From Pyrinomonadaceae bacterium (GTDB lineage Bacteria; Acidobacteriota; Blastocatellia; Pyrinomonadales; Pyrinomonadaceae), in NCBI GenBank assembly GCA_036277115.1, contig DASUNM010000002.1, forward strand, positions 62,001 through 126,000: a DNA stretch of 64,000 nt, in the 5' to 3' direction. Positions 23,130 through 31,820 of the stretch are shown here, one piece after another; position 1 is the first letter of the stretch, and the number at the start of each line of letters is the position of its first letter. Position numbers and translations under genes: made by a program. The notes beneath the pieces are model-generated. The model ran no database searches. It saw only the letters and a program-made list of their open reading frames with translations, and was not told the origin of the DNA.

Positions 23130-25388
23130 CTACGCTGATCTTAGTTGCACCACCGGCGCAGCGGCCGGAGCGGCGAACTCACCTTTGGGAAACAGTGCGA
23201 CTTGCCAGTCAGGTGTGCGGGCAATCCAGCCGTCAATGGCGCTCGCTTCCGCCGGACGCGAGAACAGATAGCCCTGACCGAACTGACAATTCAGCGCGCG
23301 CAGCTGGCCGAATTGCGCGAGCGTCTCAACGCCTTCGGCAACGACTTCCATGCCCATGTTGTCGGCCAGCGACACGATGGTGCGCACGATTTCAATATTC
23401 TCAGCGGCCTCGCCGATACGACCGACGAACGACCGGTCGATCTTCAAAATGTCCACCGGGAAGCGGTGCAAATAACCGAGCGACGAATAGCCCGTGCCGA
23501 AGTCGTCGATGCTCAGTTGCACGCCCAGTGCCTTCAGTCGCCGCAGAAGCTGCACGGCGGTCTCGGCATTTTCCATGACGGCGCTTTCGGTGATTTCAAG
23601 TTTCAAATGCTTCGGCTCAACATGCGTGTCTTGCAAGACGTCGCGAATCTGATTGACTAGCGCCGATTGCGCCAACTGCTTGCTGGACAGATTGACGCTC
23701 ATGAAAAGGTTTCGCGTCGTGTGCGATTGCCACTGCCATTTCGCGAGCTGCTGACAAGCTTCCTTCAGCACCCACATCCCAATCGGAACAATCAAGCCCG
23801 TATCTTCGGCGAGGGAAATAAAGTCGCCCGGGCTGACAAAGCCACGCTCGGGATGCTGCCAACGAATCAGAGCCTCAAAGCCCGCGAGCTGTCCCGTATC
23901 GAGTGAAACGATCGGTTGATAGTGGACGCGGAACTCTTCACGGTCGATCGCGCGGCGCAAGTCGTTCTCCATTTGCAGCAGGTAAACGGCGCGCGCGTGC
24001 ATGCCTTTGTCGAACACTTCGTAGCATGCCTTGCCCTGGGCCTTGGCGCGATACATCGCCGTGTCGGCGTCACGCAGCATCGCTTCCGGATGGTCATACC
24101 CGGTTGAGCTCATCGCGATGCCAATGCTGGTGGTGGTGAAAACTTCATGGCCGCTCAGGTTGAACGGTGACTCCAACTTGGCCTGAATGCGGCGCGCCAT
24201 ACTGGTCGGGTCGCCGGAGTCGGCAATGCCGTCGAGCAAAATTGCGAACTCGTCGCCGCCCAGCCGCGCCACCATGTCACTCTCGCGAATGCAATGCTCC
24301 AATCGACGGGCCATCGCAATCAGCAGTTGATCGCCGATCGAATGGCCCAGACTGTCGTTGACGTTCTTGAAGCGATCGAGGTCCAGGAAGAGCACGGCGA
24401 ACTGATAATCCTCGTGCTGCTTCGCGCGTTCGATGACGAACTTCAGGTTTTCAGCGAGTAGCGCGCGGTTCGGCAGGTTCGTCAGCGTGTCGTGAAAAGC
24501 CGCGTGACGGAAGTGGTCTTTGCTCTCCTGAAGCTGTGCGCCGATCCGTTCCTGTTCGGCGATGTGCCGGTTCAGCTCTTCGACGTGACGTTCGGCCTGT
24601 TCCGCGCGCGCGCGCTCGGCTTCGGCGCGGGCGCTCTCAGCTTCAGCTCGTTCACGTTCAGCCTGTTCCGCCTGTTCGGCGCTGGCTTTAATCTCGTCGA
24701 GATACTTGTGATAGGTGAAGTAAACGATCGAAATCACCGGGGTGCCGACGATCAGGATCGCCAGTCCGGCTTTGTCGAAACGGCTGGCAGTGATCGCCGC
24801 CACCGTGCTGCCCGAGATGTAAGTGATCGAAGTCCAGAGATAATGTGTCTGCCACGTGCGGAGAATGTGGTCCCACTTTTTCAAGGACAGACCGATTGCG
24901 CTGATGCCTGTGTTGATGAAGTACTGAGACAGCGCCATTGCGCCGACCGCAGGGATGAAGTGCTGCCACTCCTGGAACCTGAGGTTCCCAATGGGACCAA
25001 AGAAGAACTCGACGATCAGAACCGTAAGGAGCGTCGAGACAGCCATCATGGCTGAGTTGAATGCGACCGTCAGCGTCGTCTTGCTGATTCTAATTCCGGA
25101 AAACAGCCCTTCCGCCGCCGCCAAAAAGATTCCGGCAAAGCCGCCGTAAACCAGCAAGGCCAGAAAAATGAAGGTGTCAGAAACAGTGACGTTGGTATTG
25201 ACGCGGGGAACTTTCACCGCGAAGCGCGAGCTGACGACCATGGTGATCGCGGCCAGCAGCACGAACCGTACGTCCAGATGTGGTAACGGCATGCGCCACA
25301 TCGCATAGGCGAGCGATACAACGCCGCACGCGACGATGACGTAACGGAAGGCGGTAGAAATTTTTCCTCTGACGGGGGATGCGCTCAT
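23130..25388 (-). CDS. Membrane GGDEF-EAL cyclic-di-GMP protein
   Basis: 752 residues in three parts. About eight membrane segments (12-235) form an N-terminal sensor domain. A charged coiled-coil (about 235-285, rich in Glu, Ala and Arg) links to a GGDEF domain with intact LGGDEFAILLDG at about residue 380 and an EAL domain with intact EALIRWQHPERG and DDFGTGYSSLGYLHRFP. Both catalytic signatures are present, so it may synthesise and degrade c-di-GMP, though one activity often dominates. It likely controls motility, exopolysaccharide or attachment. No partner is recognisable beside it. Confidence 0.94.
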   Translation of the reverse strand: MSASPVRGKISTAFRYVIVACGVVSLAYAMWRMPLPHLDVRFVLLAAITMVVSSRFAVKVPRVNTNVTVSDTFIFLALLVYGGFAGIFLAAAEGLFSGIRISKTTLTVAFNSAMMAVSTLLTVLIVEFFFGPIGNLRFQEWQHFIPAVGAMALSQYFINTGISAIGLSLKKWDHILRTWQTHYLWTSITYISGSTVAAITASRFDKAGLAILIVGTPVISIVYFTYHKYLDEIKASAEQAEQAERERAEAESARAEAERARAEQAERHVEELNRHIAEQERIGAQLQESKDHFRHAAFHDTLTNLPNRALLAENLKFVIERAKQHEDYQFAVLFLDLDRFKNVNDSLGHSIGDQLLIAMARRLEHCIRESDMVARLGGDEFAILLDGIADSGDPTSMARRIQAKLESPFNLSGHEVFTTTSIGIAMSSTGYDHPEAMLRDADTAMYRAKAQGKACYEVFDKGMHARAVYLLQMENDLRRAIDREEFRVHYQPIVSLDTGQLAGFEALIRWQHPERGFVSPGDFISLAEDTGLIVPIGMWVLKEACQQLAKWQWQSHTTRNLFMSVNLSSKQLAQSALVNQIRDVLQDTHVEPKHLKLEITESAVMENAETAVQLLRRLKALGVQLSIDDFGTGYSSLGYLHRFPVDILKIDRSFVGRIGEAAENIEIVRTIVSLADNMGMEVVAEGVETLAQFGQLRALNCQFGQGYLFSRPAEASAIDGWIARTPDWQVALFPKGEFAAPAAAPVVQLRSA

Positions 25389-25410
25389 TAACGGGGAAAC
25401 CTCGCGGAAC

Positions 25411-26307
25411 TTATTCCTGACCCAGATAGATCGTTAGGTACTCACTGTGATAGTCGAACCCGGCGCGCACGTAAAACGCGGCGGCGTTTGCCCTTCGTTC
25501 GTTGATTGTGAGGCAGACTGATCGACCGGGGCGGGCGAGAATTGACGAGAGCTGCAACAAGCATCGCTTGCCGTAGCCTTTTTTCCGTTCGTCGGGGTGC
25601 ACGTGAATTCCTTCGAGGTAGATCATCTCTGGCGTATGGCCCACGATGTCGGCTTTGAAAATCGCTTTTCCATCACGCATCCAAATCCAAATGCGCTGTT
25701 GATCGATGCGCCGCCGCGTGCGGGCGCGAAACCCCTCTGCGTCACGTTCAAGCGGATCACTGCCACCTTCCTGCGTAGCGAGCAGCCCGTTAATCGCGAC
25801 GACGTGCTCGGTCTCTTGAAGCGTCGCCAACCGTAATTCAGCGACCGGTTCAAACGGGGGCGTCTGTTCCATCTTTTCGAACAGCATTTCACGGCACACA
25901 AGGCGCGCCTGTTGTCCGCCCTCGGAGTAATGCTTCCAGAAGGTCTCAACGGTGCGGCGTTCGCCGCGAATGAGGTGAGCGTGTCGGCTGTGAGCAGCCA
26001 GTTGGGCAAAGGCGGCGACCGCGTGATCGGTGCGCGCCTCGACGATAGTAGCATGCCCGATTAGGGCTATGCCTTCAATTTTTTTCGATCCGTTGCGGCA
26101 GACGTAAAAAGTGCCTCGATTATTGGGGCTCACCGCCCCGTTGTCCCGCAGGATGGTGGCGAGAAAGACCGCATGAATGGGCCTTTCGGCAAGAAAACGC
26201 AGGGCCTCAGGCTCCTCGCCAGGCTGCAGCTGATTGCATGTGCGGTCGCCGAGCATCGCGTGGGCCGAGCCGGGGGAGGCCTCATGCTTCATCAAAGTTA
26301 CAGCCAT
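25411..26307 (-). CDS. GNAT-family N-acetyltransferase
   Basis: 298 residues. A less conserved N-terminal half (LRFLAERPIHAVFLATILRD) resembles the DUF4081-type domain of two-domain GNATs. The C-terminal half has the acetyl-CoA-binding motif A (GIHVHPDERKKGYGKRCLLQ) and the closing strand FYVRAGFDYHSEYLTIYLG. The first Met and Met6 (MKHEASPGS) are both possible starts. Substrate unknown. It lies 30 bp downstream of the S8 protease start-to-stop reading direction (the protease gene ends upstream at 26338), so the two may share a transcript. Confidence 0.9.
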   Translation of the reverse strand: MAVTLMKHEASPGSAHAMLGDRTCNQLQPGEEPEALRFLAERPIHAVFLATILRDNGAVSPNNRGTFYVCRNGSKKIEGIALIGHATIVEARTDHAVAAFAQLAAHSRHAHLIRGERRTVETFWKHYSEGGQQARLVCREMLFEKMEQTPPFEPVAELRLATLQETEHVVAINGLLATQEGGSDPLERDAEGFRARTRRRIDQQRIWIWMRDGKAIFKADIVGHTPEMIYLEGIHVHPDERKKGYGKRCLLQLSSILARPGRSVCLTINERRANAAAFYVRAGFDYHSEYLTIYLGQE

Positions 26308-26337
26308 GGTTGTTCCTTGCCGGCGGGTCGAGCGGAC

Positions 26338-29004
26338 CTAGGGCCGCATTGAGGGACCGGGATCACCGTAGATCATCGCTTGTAAAGACATCGCCCAGAT
26401 AGCATCGCCGATAACTACGCCATCGCCGATTACCACACCATCGCCCAGGAGGATGCCATCACCGATAACTACGCCATCGCCGATAACGACACCGTCACCT
26501 AGCAGAATGCCGCTGCAAAACATAGTGCCGTCACCGATGACCACGCCGTCGCTCTTGAAAATTGTGTCGCCAAGGACCACGCCATCGCCAATCACGACAC
26601 CGTCGCCGATGACCACTCCATCCCCAAGGACAACCCCATCTCCGAGCACGACGCCGTCGCCGAGCACCACGCCCTTCGCGTAATAGCTCTGATACTTCGT
26701 AATCAAAGCCGAGCCCCTGGCCCACCAGTGCTCGAAGATGATTCCCTGGGACCAGTTAACCTTTTGGCCGGCGATAGTCGTGCTGGGAGTGGGCGCCGTC
26801 GTTACGGTGAGTAGCGGATCGCCGGGCCTCGTTGTCGTGCTGAAATCGGTGCGCGCCAGTTTGGCAAGTCGCACTGCGCCTTCAGCATTCACTTGACCGG
26901 TGCCCTGCTCGAACGTGTTCCAGCCCCGCAGTGGTTGCGCCGAATACATCAGCATCGCCTTGACCATGTTGGGCGTGAGCTTCGGATTAACCTGCAACAT
27001 CATGGCGGCAATGCCGGAAACGATCGGGGTCGCCATTGAGCTGCCGCTGAGGTACATCAATCGGCGGTTCTCGTTGTTCGATACGCCCGCATCCAGAGTG
27101 GGATACTTGGTGACGAGGTAATTCTTGTCCACGCTTCCCAGGAGTCCCGTGCCCAGCAAACCCGAGCTGCCGGCGTCGGACTCGGCGTAGATCAACTTGT
27201 TACCAGGAGCAACGATATCCGGCTTTAGAATATTGTCGTAGTGAGTCGTCTTGTTGGCATCAGTCCAACGGCTCCGCGTCGGCCCGCGCGAGCTGTAGGT
27301 AGCGACGCCGTCATCACTTCTCACATCAGTGCCAAACGTGTTCGTGGCGCCGACGGTGATCACGGAGGGCTCATTGCCCGGCGCATGAATCTGTCCATAG
27401 ATTTTTCGACCGCTCGCGTCCTTGCCGTTGTTCCCGGCGGCCGCTACCACCACGATGCCAGCATCGGCCAGTGCGCGAGAGGCGCGGCAAATCGGATCGT
27501 TCTTGTAGCTGCTAATGGCTGGCGCCCCAAGGCTCATGTTAACGATGCGAATGTTGTACTTGTCCTTATTCAATGGATTCGTCGAACTAACCGCTTTGGT
27601 GGGATCGGCAGGGCTGAGAATCCAGTTGAGCGCGCTCAGTAATCCTGAAGCCGTTCCGACACCGTTCTTGTTCAAAACGCGGAGGTTAATTACTGAGGCC
27701 CCCGGCGCTATACCCTGATATTTTGTTCCGTCCGAGTAACTGGCGGCGGCGGCCGAGCCCGCGACGTGAGTACCGTGCCCGTAGGGGTCCGTCGCAGTGT
27801 TCTTCTCTCCGGTAAAATCCTTGCTGAATTTGACTCGGTTTGTCCCGGTCGTGAATGCCAGGTGGCTTGAATCCAAACCGGAGTCCAGCACCGCAATGCC
27901 CACACCCTTTCCATCGATGGCCGTCGCGCCCAGCAAGCCGGCGAGAAGTCCCGGCGCGTTGCGAACCTGATCTGTTCCTGTCGTCGCAGTGACGTGACCA
28001 AGACTCTCCACCTTTACATCCGGAGAGATGTAATTCATCGAGTTGCTCTTCATGAGCGGATCGATTGCTGCGACCGGCAGATCGACTTTCATCGCACCGA
28101 GGTTCGGCATGCCATCACCGATGGCAACTCCGTACCGCGCCAACAGCGCGCGAACCTGGCGACTATTGACATCACTGACCTGCACAATTGCAGACACCTG
28201 GCCATTCGGGCCGGCGGACGCCATCAAGTCGCGCATGTCAGGCGCGATCTTCTCGCCTTCGAAGTTCTGGTTGATTGGGCTCTTACGTTTGTCTTTGAGT
28301 GAGTTTGTGTTTTCAGCAGAATCAACTGCGTCCAGAGATATGGTTTCGAAAAGGACGGCGACCGTTTCGTCTGTGCCGATGTAAGAGTCGTAGGCTTCGG
28401 GACTGGCGCCACCAATGACGCTAATGTGGTTCGCGGTTATTGCCGATCGCACGGTCGCGGTGGCTGCGGCCGTGGCGCGTGCGCCCGCGTATTGATGCAG
28501 CTGATCGACGAAGAGAATAATTGTGTCATGTGTGGCCGCGGCTGCGGCGAACACAGAATGAATGCGCAGATTGAAGTCCTCGGACGTTTTTGCGTCTTTC
28601 GCAAGCGCGTCGAGGTTCAGGCTAAATACCCGCTTTCCCTGCAGGTGCAGGGGGACATTGCCGGACGCTATACGCAAGGCAACGCCGCGTGCGACCGACG
28701 CGCGATCAACGTCAGAGGCGCCAATCACCACCGGCGCTCTCGCTGAAGTGTTCGCCAGATTATCAATAACGCTATCGATTTCCGCGTCGAAGCCGCGAAC
28801 GGATTCGAACTTTCCTTGCGACGCTTCCTCGGAAAGGTCCGTCGCATACGCGAAAAGCACGGCGCGTGCATCATCCTTCGAAAGCGTGGGTACTGAGACT
28901 TGGGCGTTTGCGGCTCGGGTGAGGCCGAAACCGGCGGACATCGAAAGCAGTAAAGCCGTAACCACTAGCAAGGCAACTGCGGGGGCAGTTCGTGTTCTCA
29001 TCAT
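26338..29004 (-). CDS. Exported S8 subtilisin with degenerate Clp AAA+ domain and hexapeptide tail
   Basis: About 888 residues from the ATG at 29004 (MMRTRTAPAVALLVV); an ATG at 29052 would add 16 residues before the signal peptide. Residue numbers below count from 29052. Signal peptide to about 50. Residues 71-240 align with the first ATPase domain of ClpC encoded at 29445 (DLSEEASQGKF, PVVIG, GNVPLHLQGKRVFSLNL, IILFVDQLHQYAGA), but the Walker A is GASDVDRA. Residues 285-350 look like an I9 prodomain. The S8 domain has Asp390 (AVLDSGLD), His426 (YGHGTHVAGS) and Ser672 (SGSSMATP). Residues 794-883 are 15 hexads of GVVIGD/GVVLGD type. Divergent from clpC. Confidence 0.93.
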   Translation of the reverse strand: MMRTRTAPAVALLVVTALLLSMSAGFGLTRAANAQVSVPTLSKDDARAVLFAYATDLSEEASQGKFESVRGFDAEIDSVIDNLANTSARAPVVIGASDVDRASVARGVALRIASGNVPLHLQGKRVFSLNLDALAKDAKTSEDFNLRIHSVFAAAAATHDTIILFVDQLHQYAGARATAAATATVRSAITANHISVIGGASPEAYDSYIGTDETVAVLFETISLDAVDSAENTNSLKDKRKSPINQNFEGEKIAPDMRDLMASAGPNGQVSAIVQVSDVNSRQVRALLARYGVAIGDGMPNLGAMKVDLPVAAIDPLMKSNSMNYISPDVKVESLGHVTATTGTDQVRNAPGLLAGLLGATAIDGKGVGIAVLDSGLDSSHLAFTTGTNRVKFSKDFTGEKNTATDPYGHGTHVAGSAAAASYSDGTKYQGIAPGASVINLRVLNKNGVGTASGLLSALNWILSPADPTKAVSSTNPLNKDKYNIRIVNMSLGAPAISSYKNDPICRASRALADAGIVVVAAAGNNGKDASGRKIYGQIHAPGNEPSVITVGATNTFGTDVRSDDGVATYSSRGPTRSRWTDANKTTHYDNILKPDIVAPGNKLIYAESDAGSSGLLGTGLLGSVDKNYLVTKYPTLDAGVSNNENRRLMYLSGSSMATPIVSGIAAMMLQVNPKLTPNMVKAMLMYSAQPLRGWNTFEQGTGQVNAEGAVRLAKLARTDFSTTTRPGDPLLTVTTAPTPSTTIAGQKVNWSQGIIFEHWWARGSALITKYQSYYAKGVVLGDGVVLGDGVVLGDGVVIGDGVVIGDGVVLGDTIFKSDGVVIGDGTMFCSGILLGDGVVIGDGVVIGDGILLGDGVVIGDGVVIGDAIWAMSLQAMIYGDPGPSMRP
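26404..26673 (-). repeat. Fifteen in-frame hexapeptide-coding repeats
   Basis: Eighteen-base units coding GVVIGD, GVVLGD, GILLGD and two diverged versions (TIFKSD, GTMFCS) follow one another without gaps. Each fits the hexapeptide rule of left-handed beta-helix proteins (aliphatic-Gly-x-Gly-Val). Fifteen hexads make five triangular coils. The codons for identical units differ, so the array is old and under protein-level selection, and not a recent slippage product. Confidence 0.88.
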
Positions 29005-29052
29005 TGATTCAATCCTTCGCATCCTGAACATGGCTCGCAGACCACACTCCAC

Positions 29053-29444: not shown

Positions 29445-31820
29445 ATGTTCGAACGCTACACAGAAAAAGCGCGACGGGTAATTTTTTTCGCTCGCTACGA
29501 AGCGTCGCAATTCGGCGCGCCCGCGATTGAGCCGGAGCATCTGCTGCTCGGCCTGATGCGCGAGGACAAGACGCTCACCGGGCGCTTCTTCCCGCGCGCG
29601 CAGATCACCATCGAAGCAATCCGCCGGGAGATTGAAGGCCGCACGTTGCTGCGCGAACGGATTCCAACTTCCGTCGAATTACCTTTGGCGCCGGAAACGA
29701 AGCGTGTGCTGCATTACTCGCATGAGGAATCTGATCGCCTGCAGCACCGGCACATCGGCACAGAGCATTTGCTGCTCGGACTTTTGCGTGAAGAACGTTC
29801 GATGGCGGCGCAGATTCTATTCGAGCGCGGCTTGCGCCTGAACGCGGTGCGCGACGAGATCGCGCGACAGAGCGGCGCCGACGCGCGTCATCGCAAAGAC
29901 ATTCCGCACCTGCTCGAGTTTTCGCGCGATCTGACGGAAGACGCTTCCAACGATCGCCTCGATCCGTTGATCGGCCGTGAGCCCGAGATCGAACGAGTGG
30001 TGCAAATTCTTTGCCGGCGCACCAAGAATAACCCGGTTCTGATCGGCGAACCTGGCGTCGGCAAAACTGCAATCGTCGAAGGCCTCGCGCAGCGCATCGT
30101 GCGCGGCGAGGTGCCATCGTTCCTCGAGAACAAACGCATTCTCTCGCTCGACATCAGTTTGATCGTCGCGGGTACGAAGTATCGGGGTCAGTTCGAAGAG
30201 CGGCTCAAGCAAATCATGCGCGAGTTGATCGACAATCCGCAGTACATCGTGTTCATCGACGAGCTGCATACTTTGGTGGGCGCGGGCTCGGCGGAAGGGT
30301 CGCTTGATGCGGCGAATATCCTGAAGCCGGCGCTCTCGCGCGGCGAGATTCAGTGCATCGGCGCCACCACACCGGCGGAGTTTCGCAAATCGATCGAACG
30401 CGACCGCTCGCTGGAACGACGCTTTCAGGCCGTCAAGGTTGCACCGCCATCCGAGGTTGAAGCGATCGAGATTTTGTCCGGCGTGCGCGAGCGCTACGAG
30501 AGTTTTCACCAGGTGCATTACGCCGATGATGCGCTGGCCGCCGCTGTGATCCAGTCAAGCCGCTATATTCCCGATCGTTTCCTGCCGGATAAGGCTATCG
30601 ACGTGATCGACGAAGCGGGAGCGCGAGTGAAGCTGCGCGTGCGCGCTGAGCAGGGAAGCATCGATGCGTTGACTGCGTCGTTAACCGAATGGGAGCGCGC
30701 TACCTACGGCCGCGCGCAAGCGCCCATCGAAGAAGAAGATCCCATCGTGGTAGGCGAGGTGACGCGCGGCGACGTTGAAGAGGTGATTGCGCGGTGGACC
30801 GGCATCCCCATCACGTCGCTGAAAGAGGGCGAGTCAAAGAAACTTCTTCGCATCGAAATCGAGTTGCACAAACGCGTCGTTTCACAGCGCCCGGCAATCT
30901 CGGCGCTCGCGCGCGCCATTCGACGCTCGCGCGCAGGCTTGAAGAACCCGCACCGGCCCGTCGGGTCGTTCCTGTTTCTGGGGCCCACGGGCGTCGGCAA
31001 GACGGAAGTGGCCCGGTCACTCGCGCAGTTTCTGTTCGGCAGCGAGCGCGCGATGATTCGCTTCGACATGTCCGAGTTCATGGAGAAGCATTCTGTCTCC
31101 AAATTAATCGGCTCTCCGCCGGGTTACGTCGGGCATGAAGAAGGCGGGCAACTGACGGAACGCGTGAAGCGCTCGCCCTATGCCGTGTTGCTGTTCGATG
31201 AAATCGAAAAGGCGCACACGGACATCTTCAACATTTTGCTCCAGGTCTTTGAAGACGGAATCCTGACCGACGCGCTCGGCAACACCGTTGATTTCAAGAA
31301 CACCATCATCATCATGACGTCGAACATCGGCGCGCGCTTCATTCAGAAGAGAGCATCGCTCGGTTTCCAGGGGACCGCCGACATGTCGAGGACGAAGATG
31401 GAAGAAATGGTGATGAGTTCGGTGCGCCAGACCTTCAATCCTGAGTTCATCAACCGGCTCGACGAGATTATTGTGTTCGACGAACTCGGCGATCCGGATC
31501 TGCTCGACGTGTTGCAGCTGCAAGTGGATCAGATTAACCGGACGATGACGAATCACGGCTTTATCGTTCGCCTGGCTGACGATGCGAAGCGCTGGATACT
31601 CGACAAGACCTGCGCCGATCGCTCATACGGCGCGCGCCCGCTCCGCCGCGCGCTGCAGAAATACGTCGAAGATCCGCTTTCGGAAGCCTTGATTCAGGGC
31701 CAGCTCGGAGAGGCGTCGCTGGTGGAAATGTATGTTGAGAGTGGCGAACTCGGCTTTCGCTCGATCATGATCGATGAAAACGGAGTCGAGCAGCCCAGCG
31801 ATTTGCTGCTGACGCAGTAA
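29445..31820 (+). CDS. clpC: ATP-dependent Clp protease ATPase subunit ClpC
   Basis: AAA+ unfoldase that feeds substrates to ClpP. 791 residues. Two Clp-N repeats fill 1-140 ([26 protein letters not shown]). NBD1 has Walker A GEPGVGKT at 201-208 and Walker B IVFIDE at 268-273. NBD2 has Walker A GPTGVGKT at 513-520 and [11 protein letters not shown]. The middle region between DEAGARV (389) and WTGIP (451) is about 25 residues shorter than in Bacillus ClpC, and I see no UVR-type coiled coil, so adaptor interaction may differ. Standalone gene with its own terminator. Confidence 0.95.

Follow-up and report, generated by a model that had tools for sequence, protein, structure and literature searches.

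The window, the whole stretch of 64,000 nucleotides that was analysed, carries a three-gene cassette (23130-29004, minus strand) encoding a predicted exported S8 protease, then a GNAT acetyltransferase and then a membrane GGDEF-EAL protein. The reading frame of the protease gene is uninterrupted from a GTG at 29052 or an ATG at 29004 down to its stop, and residue numbers are counted here from the GTG. The protein consists, in this order, of a signal peptide, a pseudo-AAA domain, a linker, a propeptide-like region, the S8 domain and hexapeptide repeats:

26338..29004, minus strand: gene for the exported S8 protease that bears the pseudo-AAA domain (ATG at 29004, stop at 26338; possible alternative start at the in-frame GTG, 29052)
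28900..29004, minus strand: signal peptide, residues 17-51, read from the sequence (probable cleavage after ANAQ)
28318..28881, minus strand: pseudo-AAA+ domain, corresponding to the large subdomain of ClpB NBD1 only, residues 58-245
28699..28722, minus strand: former Walker A, GASDVDRA (GEPGVGKT in ClpB)
28495..28521, minus strand: former Walker B, IILFVDQLH (VILFIDELH in ClpB)
28003..28266, minus strand: propeptide-like region, residues 263-350, preceded by a linker and starting with F.G[DE]K[VI]..D[LM]R
26923..27912, minus strand: peptidase S8 catalytic domain, residues 381-710 (PF00082, E 4.7e-48)
26398..26673, minus strand: C-terminal hexapeptide GVVxGD repeats, residues ~794-885 (PF00132, E 7.5e-14; PF25084, E 2.6e-9)
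25411..26307, minus strand: GNAT acetyltransferase, second cassette gene (PF13508, E 1e-8), after a 30-base gap
23130..25388, minus strand: membrane GGDEF-EAL protein, third cassette gene (PF00563, E 3.8e-81; PF00990, E 3.2e-51), after a 22-base gap

The Sec-type signal peptide (MMRTRTAPAVALLVVTALLLSMSAGFGLTRAANAQ), which had been proposed in the first-pass annotation, can be read directly from the protein, and a hydrophobic segment precedes the pseudo-AAA domain in all 47 homologues; on this basis the protease is predicted to be exported. The catalytic Asp, His and Ser and the oxyanion Asn of the S8 domain are intact, and the catalytic residues are kept in 47 out of 47 homologues. The C-terminal repeats are of the left-handed beta-helix type. 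They are also present in most S8 paralogues without the AAA domain.

The first-pass annotation described the region upstream of the S8 domain as a degenerate Clp-type AAA+ domain. Its ungapped alignment of residues 71-153 to ClpC residues 161-243 was exact, with 27 identities in 83 positions; the best ungapped match to ClpC anywhere in 2,000 shuffled copies had 20 identities. Searching the PDB with phmmer placed the ClpB NBD1 structure 1jbk on top (E 9.9e-24), followed by Hsp104, ClpC and ClpA, and the NCBIfam models for ClpB (4.7e-29), ClpV (8.9e-26) and ClpA (7.3e-24) all matched. A profile built from the pseudo-domains alone scored the ClpB of the same genome at 218 bits, as high as the members of the profile, and the ClpCs at about 171-181 bits. 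The structural comparison used AlphaFold2 (AF2) models of low to medium confidence. The full-length model, made from a three-row alignment without Clp proteins, was poor overall (mean pLDDT 36.6) but usable in its AAA part, for which Foldseek returned Hsp104 fragments and 1jbk as the best matches (1jbk E 5.1e-12, TM 0.70 by target length). A second model reached a mean pLDDT of 63.9 and also found 1jbk (E 6.7e-11, TM 0.69), a result that is partly circular because its alignment included the ClpC of the window. Thus, of the checks that had been suggested earlier, modelling of the whole protein gave little as a global fold and identified the AAA part as a ClpB/Hsp104 NBD1, and the profile search succeeded with the PDB and NCBIfam and failed with Pfam-A, where no AAA family reached threshold.

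A chance or generic alpha/beta match could explain why the Pfam AAA models stay under threshold for this protein: the whole protein has no AAA family match in Pfam-A up to E 1, and PF00004 compared directly gives E 0.046. The same PF00004 is matched by 9 of 23 homologues (best 8.3e-7), and homologues reach 52% identity to the family's ClpB. Together with the PDB, NCBIfam, pseudo-domain profile and Foldseek matches, this leaves a fortuitous resemblance with virtually no probability, and the domain is almost certainly a degenerate Clp NBD1. Because Pfam-A misses the domain in this protein, Pfam annotation would not reveal it; standard domain libraries can overlook such domains.

The earlier assignment to ClpC gave way to ClpB. 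When the PDB, NCBIfam and the proteins of the same genome are searched, ClpB scores above ClpC, and it is the closer type for 43 of 46 pseudo-domains; the best identity, 52% to the ClpB of the same family, is seen in two of them (L019 and L040). In the phylogenetic tree, all 46 pseudo-domains fall on one side of a single branch (support 100/99), and their clade branches from within the ClpBs of the family to which the window belongs (100/89.8). Constraining the pseudo-domains to group with ClpC costs 12-13 log units. The AU test rejected this grouping for a less diverged set (p 0.02) and was not decisive for all sequences (p 0.12, not rejected), nor was a grouping that joins them to both ClpC and the third Clp type rejected (p 0.24). 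Apparently, judging from these comparisons, the lineage captured the NBD1 large subdomain of its own ClpB, once. We also considered the clpC gene that adjoins the protease gene (29445-31820) as a cause of the fusion, and dropped it because the two are neighbours only within the window's genus. In two genomes of this genus, a further Clp ATPase gene with an unusual pore loop, MLRGM, lies directly beside clpB (for instance L100, 2662-3990, plus strand).

The motifs quoted in the first-pass annotation were correct, including the lost Walker A lysine and the replacement of the Walker B glutamate by glutamine, and the losses extend across the family. Walker A (GxxxxGK[TS]) is absent here, and among the 46 homologues its Lys is found in one and its Thr in none. 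Walker B, D-E in Clp proteins and DQ here, retains its Asp in 31 and its Glu in 18 homologues, never paired with an intact Walker A, so that both motifs occur together in 0 of 46. The pore-loop Tyr is missing from all 46, the two Arg fingers persist in three and one, and in 42 the Walker A octet carries a net negative charge. Over Clp-invariant residues, mean retention is 0.18 at 11 motor positions versus 0.41 elsewhere (p 0.007). Several core positions are nearly fixed, for instance a Leu in 45 and a Phe in 43 of the 46, as is the Asp-Leu-Thr preceding the domain (40-43 of 46). Beyond what had been noted before, only the large subdomain is present: Clp matches stop at about residue 240-255, the Clp lid (small subdomain) is absent, and the propeptide-like region follows. 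The Walker A consensus differs among subclades (GESDLDRD, SDSQAVRD, D..GE..E). Two homologues look, from their motifs, like intermediate stages of degeneration, L017 keeping GETGVGKA with VDNL, and L016 keeping a Walker B DE (IDEL). We found neither a surface nor a motif that is conserved in the pseudo-domains specifically; the conserved positions look like fold core. From these residue patterns, the motor is predicted to be dead across the whole pseudo-domain family, with the alpha/beta core kept.

The check for the same architecture in other genomes was borne out. The full-length fusion is present in at least 51 of the 72 genomes searched from the window's own family (our count from the listed matches) and in none of 32 genomes from other Blastocatellia families. 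Among 297 genomes spread over the phylum it was found in none outside the family, at a threshold set above the score of ClpB, so that very divergent copies could be missed; genomes beyond the phylum were covered by a pattern scan only. No other architecture bearing the pseudo-domain was seen, and a short frame of 361 aa in one genome (G050) proved to be a frame-shifted copy of the same protease gene. In that genome, one gene copy is split by a frameshift within the S8 domain (L113, 5116-7688, minus strand). Another genome (G021) carries two tandem pseudo-AAA genes (L032, 1426-4931), the second truncated where the locus ends. In the open-access literature, we found no paper that describes such a fusion.

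The dN/dS of the domain is about 0.08-0.24, which is approximate as dS often exceeds 1; in the pair with the least saturation it is 0.09 (dS 0.87), comparable to the S8 domain of that pair. Family-wide, the domain evolves faster than S8, its identity to Clps falls to about 19-25%, and very degraded copies exist (for instance L047, E 1e-6). These ratios indicate that the pseudo-AAA domain is maintained by selection despite its lost ATP-handling residues.

AAA-less S8 paralogues, four of which are encoded in this genome, consist of a signal peptide, a short linker, the propeptide and the S8 domain, and the F.G[DE]K[VI]..D[LM]R motif sits directly after their signal peptide. In the AAA-bearing proteins, the domain occupies the linker between signal peptide and propeptide. 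The propeptide-like region has a beta-alpha-beta-alpha-beta order in AF2 models of low to medium confidence, and in one homologue it matches the Fervidolysin prodomain (PF22148, E 0.0011). The S8 tree is poorly resolved at its deep forks; it requires the trait to change twice, which fits one gain and one loss of the domain. A second AAA-bearing clade, with L002 of this genome and L124, lies outside the cassette (neighbourhood seen for L124).

Many genera keep the gene order of the cassette, whether the AAA domain is present or not (L009, L010, L114-L123, L125-L127). We compared 15 cassette loci that bear the AAA domain and have long flanking sequence. The GNAT gene is present in 14 of them, and so is the GGDEF-EAL gene; in the one locus that lacks the latter (genome G023), its place is taken by a protein with a comparable membrane portion and an apparent HD-GYP domain. 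A GNAT gene also adjoins AAA-less S8 genes of the window's family and of family f2, frequently together with the gene of the membrane protein. Because they share these neighbours, the cassette probably predates the capture of the AAA domain. Only the cassette points to a possible link of the protease to c-di-GMP signalling. An analogy is the LapD/LapG system, in which a periplasmic protease is under the control of a c-di-GMP receptor.

Propeptides of S8 enzymes assist folding, inhibit the enzyme and are cleaved off at maturation. Since the pseudo-AAA domain precedes the propeptide and would normally leave with it, its simplest role is that of an added pro-region module, and we see about an even chance that it serves as such an ATP-independent part of the S8 zymogen. 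The large subdomain of ClpB NBD1 would have been captured and placed between signal peptide and subtilisin propeptide, and would then have lost its residues for nucleotide binding and catalysis, those of the pore and the Arg fingers, with the alpha/beta core staying in place. The domain, we infer, may now be a protein-binding or self-associating scaffold for the folding, inactivity or placement of the zymogen, and may be cut away along with the propeptide at maturation of the protease. The earlier suggestion of a folding, oligomerisation or inhibitory module for the protease is a reasonable possibility. Clp AAA domains make ring and client contacts, and this general knowledge, along with the retained AAA fold, would suit a domain that stays on the mature enzyme and binds substrates or partners, or forms rings, without ATP. 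We nevertheless consider this rather unlikely, because the domain sits N-terminal to a propeptide-like region that is normally cut off in S8 enzymes, and has lost the Arg fingers and pore Tyr, through which rings and clients are usually contacted. It is very unlikely that the pseudo-AAA domains form an extracytoplasmic ring, that is, an ATP-free, ring-gated secreted subtilisin assembly; if they did, such an assembly would be built from a dead ClpB module.

Given the faster evolution of the domain compared with S8, a loosely constrained spacer is possible. That the domain is a decaying passenger, a near-neutral insertion acting merely as a spacer, would agree with its fast divergence, with very degraded copies such as that of L047 and with S8 paralogues of the same genome that manage without it. 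We regard this as improbable, as at least 51 genomes retain the domain in frame, with the low dN/dS given above and near-invariant core columns over 46 homologues, and the S8 tree needs at most one loss. Repurposing of the old nucleotide pocket to sense another ligand appears extremely unlikely: the Walker A loop is still present, with consensus sequences particular to subclades, but none is common to them, the loop has turned acidic and is thus ill-suited to phosphate, and the lid subdomain is missing. The extra pro-region module remains the reading that we prefer.

Taken at face value, this family of Acidobacteriota (class Blastocatellia) encodes a predicted exported subtilisin with what appears to be a dead ClpB motor domain. 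A cytoplasmic chaperone motor domain would thus have moved outside the cytoplasm, given the predicted export, and been kept after the loss of its motor. With a single lineage, an extant donor ClpB and graded relatives (L017, L016), the change from ATPase to non-catalytic module can be traced stepwise.

Features in common between the pseudo-domain and the NBD1 of ClpB/Hsp104 (PDB 1jbk) are the large-subdomain fold, the YxxDLTxxAxxGK linker motif ahead of it, the GDVPExLRNKR segment and the core hydrophobics. Unlike ClpB/Hsp104, its protein is predicted to be exported and lacks the lid, NBD2 and the Clp N domain; the pseudo-domain itself lacks Walker A, pore loop and Arg fingers, and is joined to an S8 protease. 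In its signal peptide, propeptide-like region and intact catalytic residues, the pseudo-AAA protein resembles secreted S8 subtilases that have a fervidolysin-type prodomain; it differs from them by the captured domain before the propeptide and by the C-terminal hexapeptide repeats. As in ClpAP and ClpCP, a Clp AAA domain is combined with a serine protease, but this likeness is formal only: the pseudo-AAA protein is a single chain, with a subtilisin instead of ClpP, predicted to be extracytoplasmic and devoid of motor residues.
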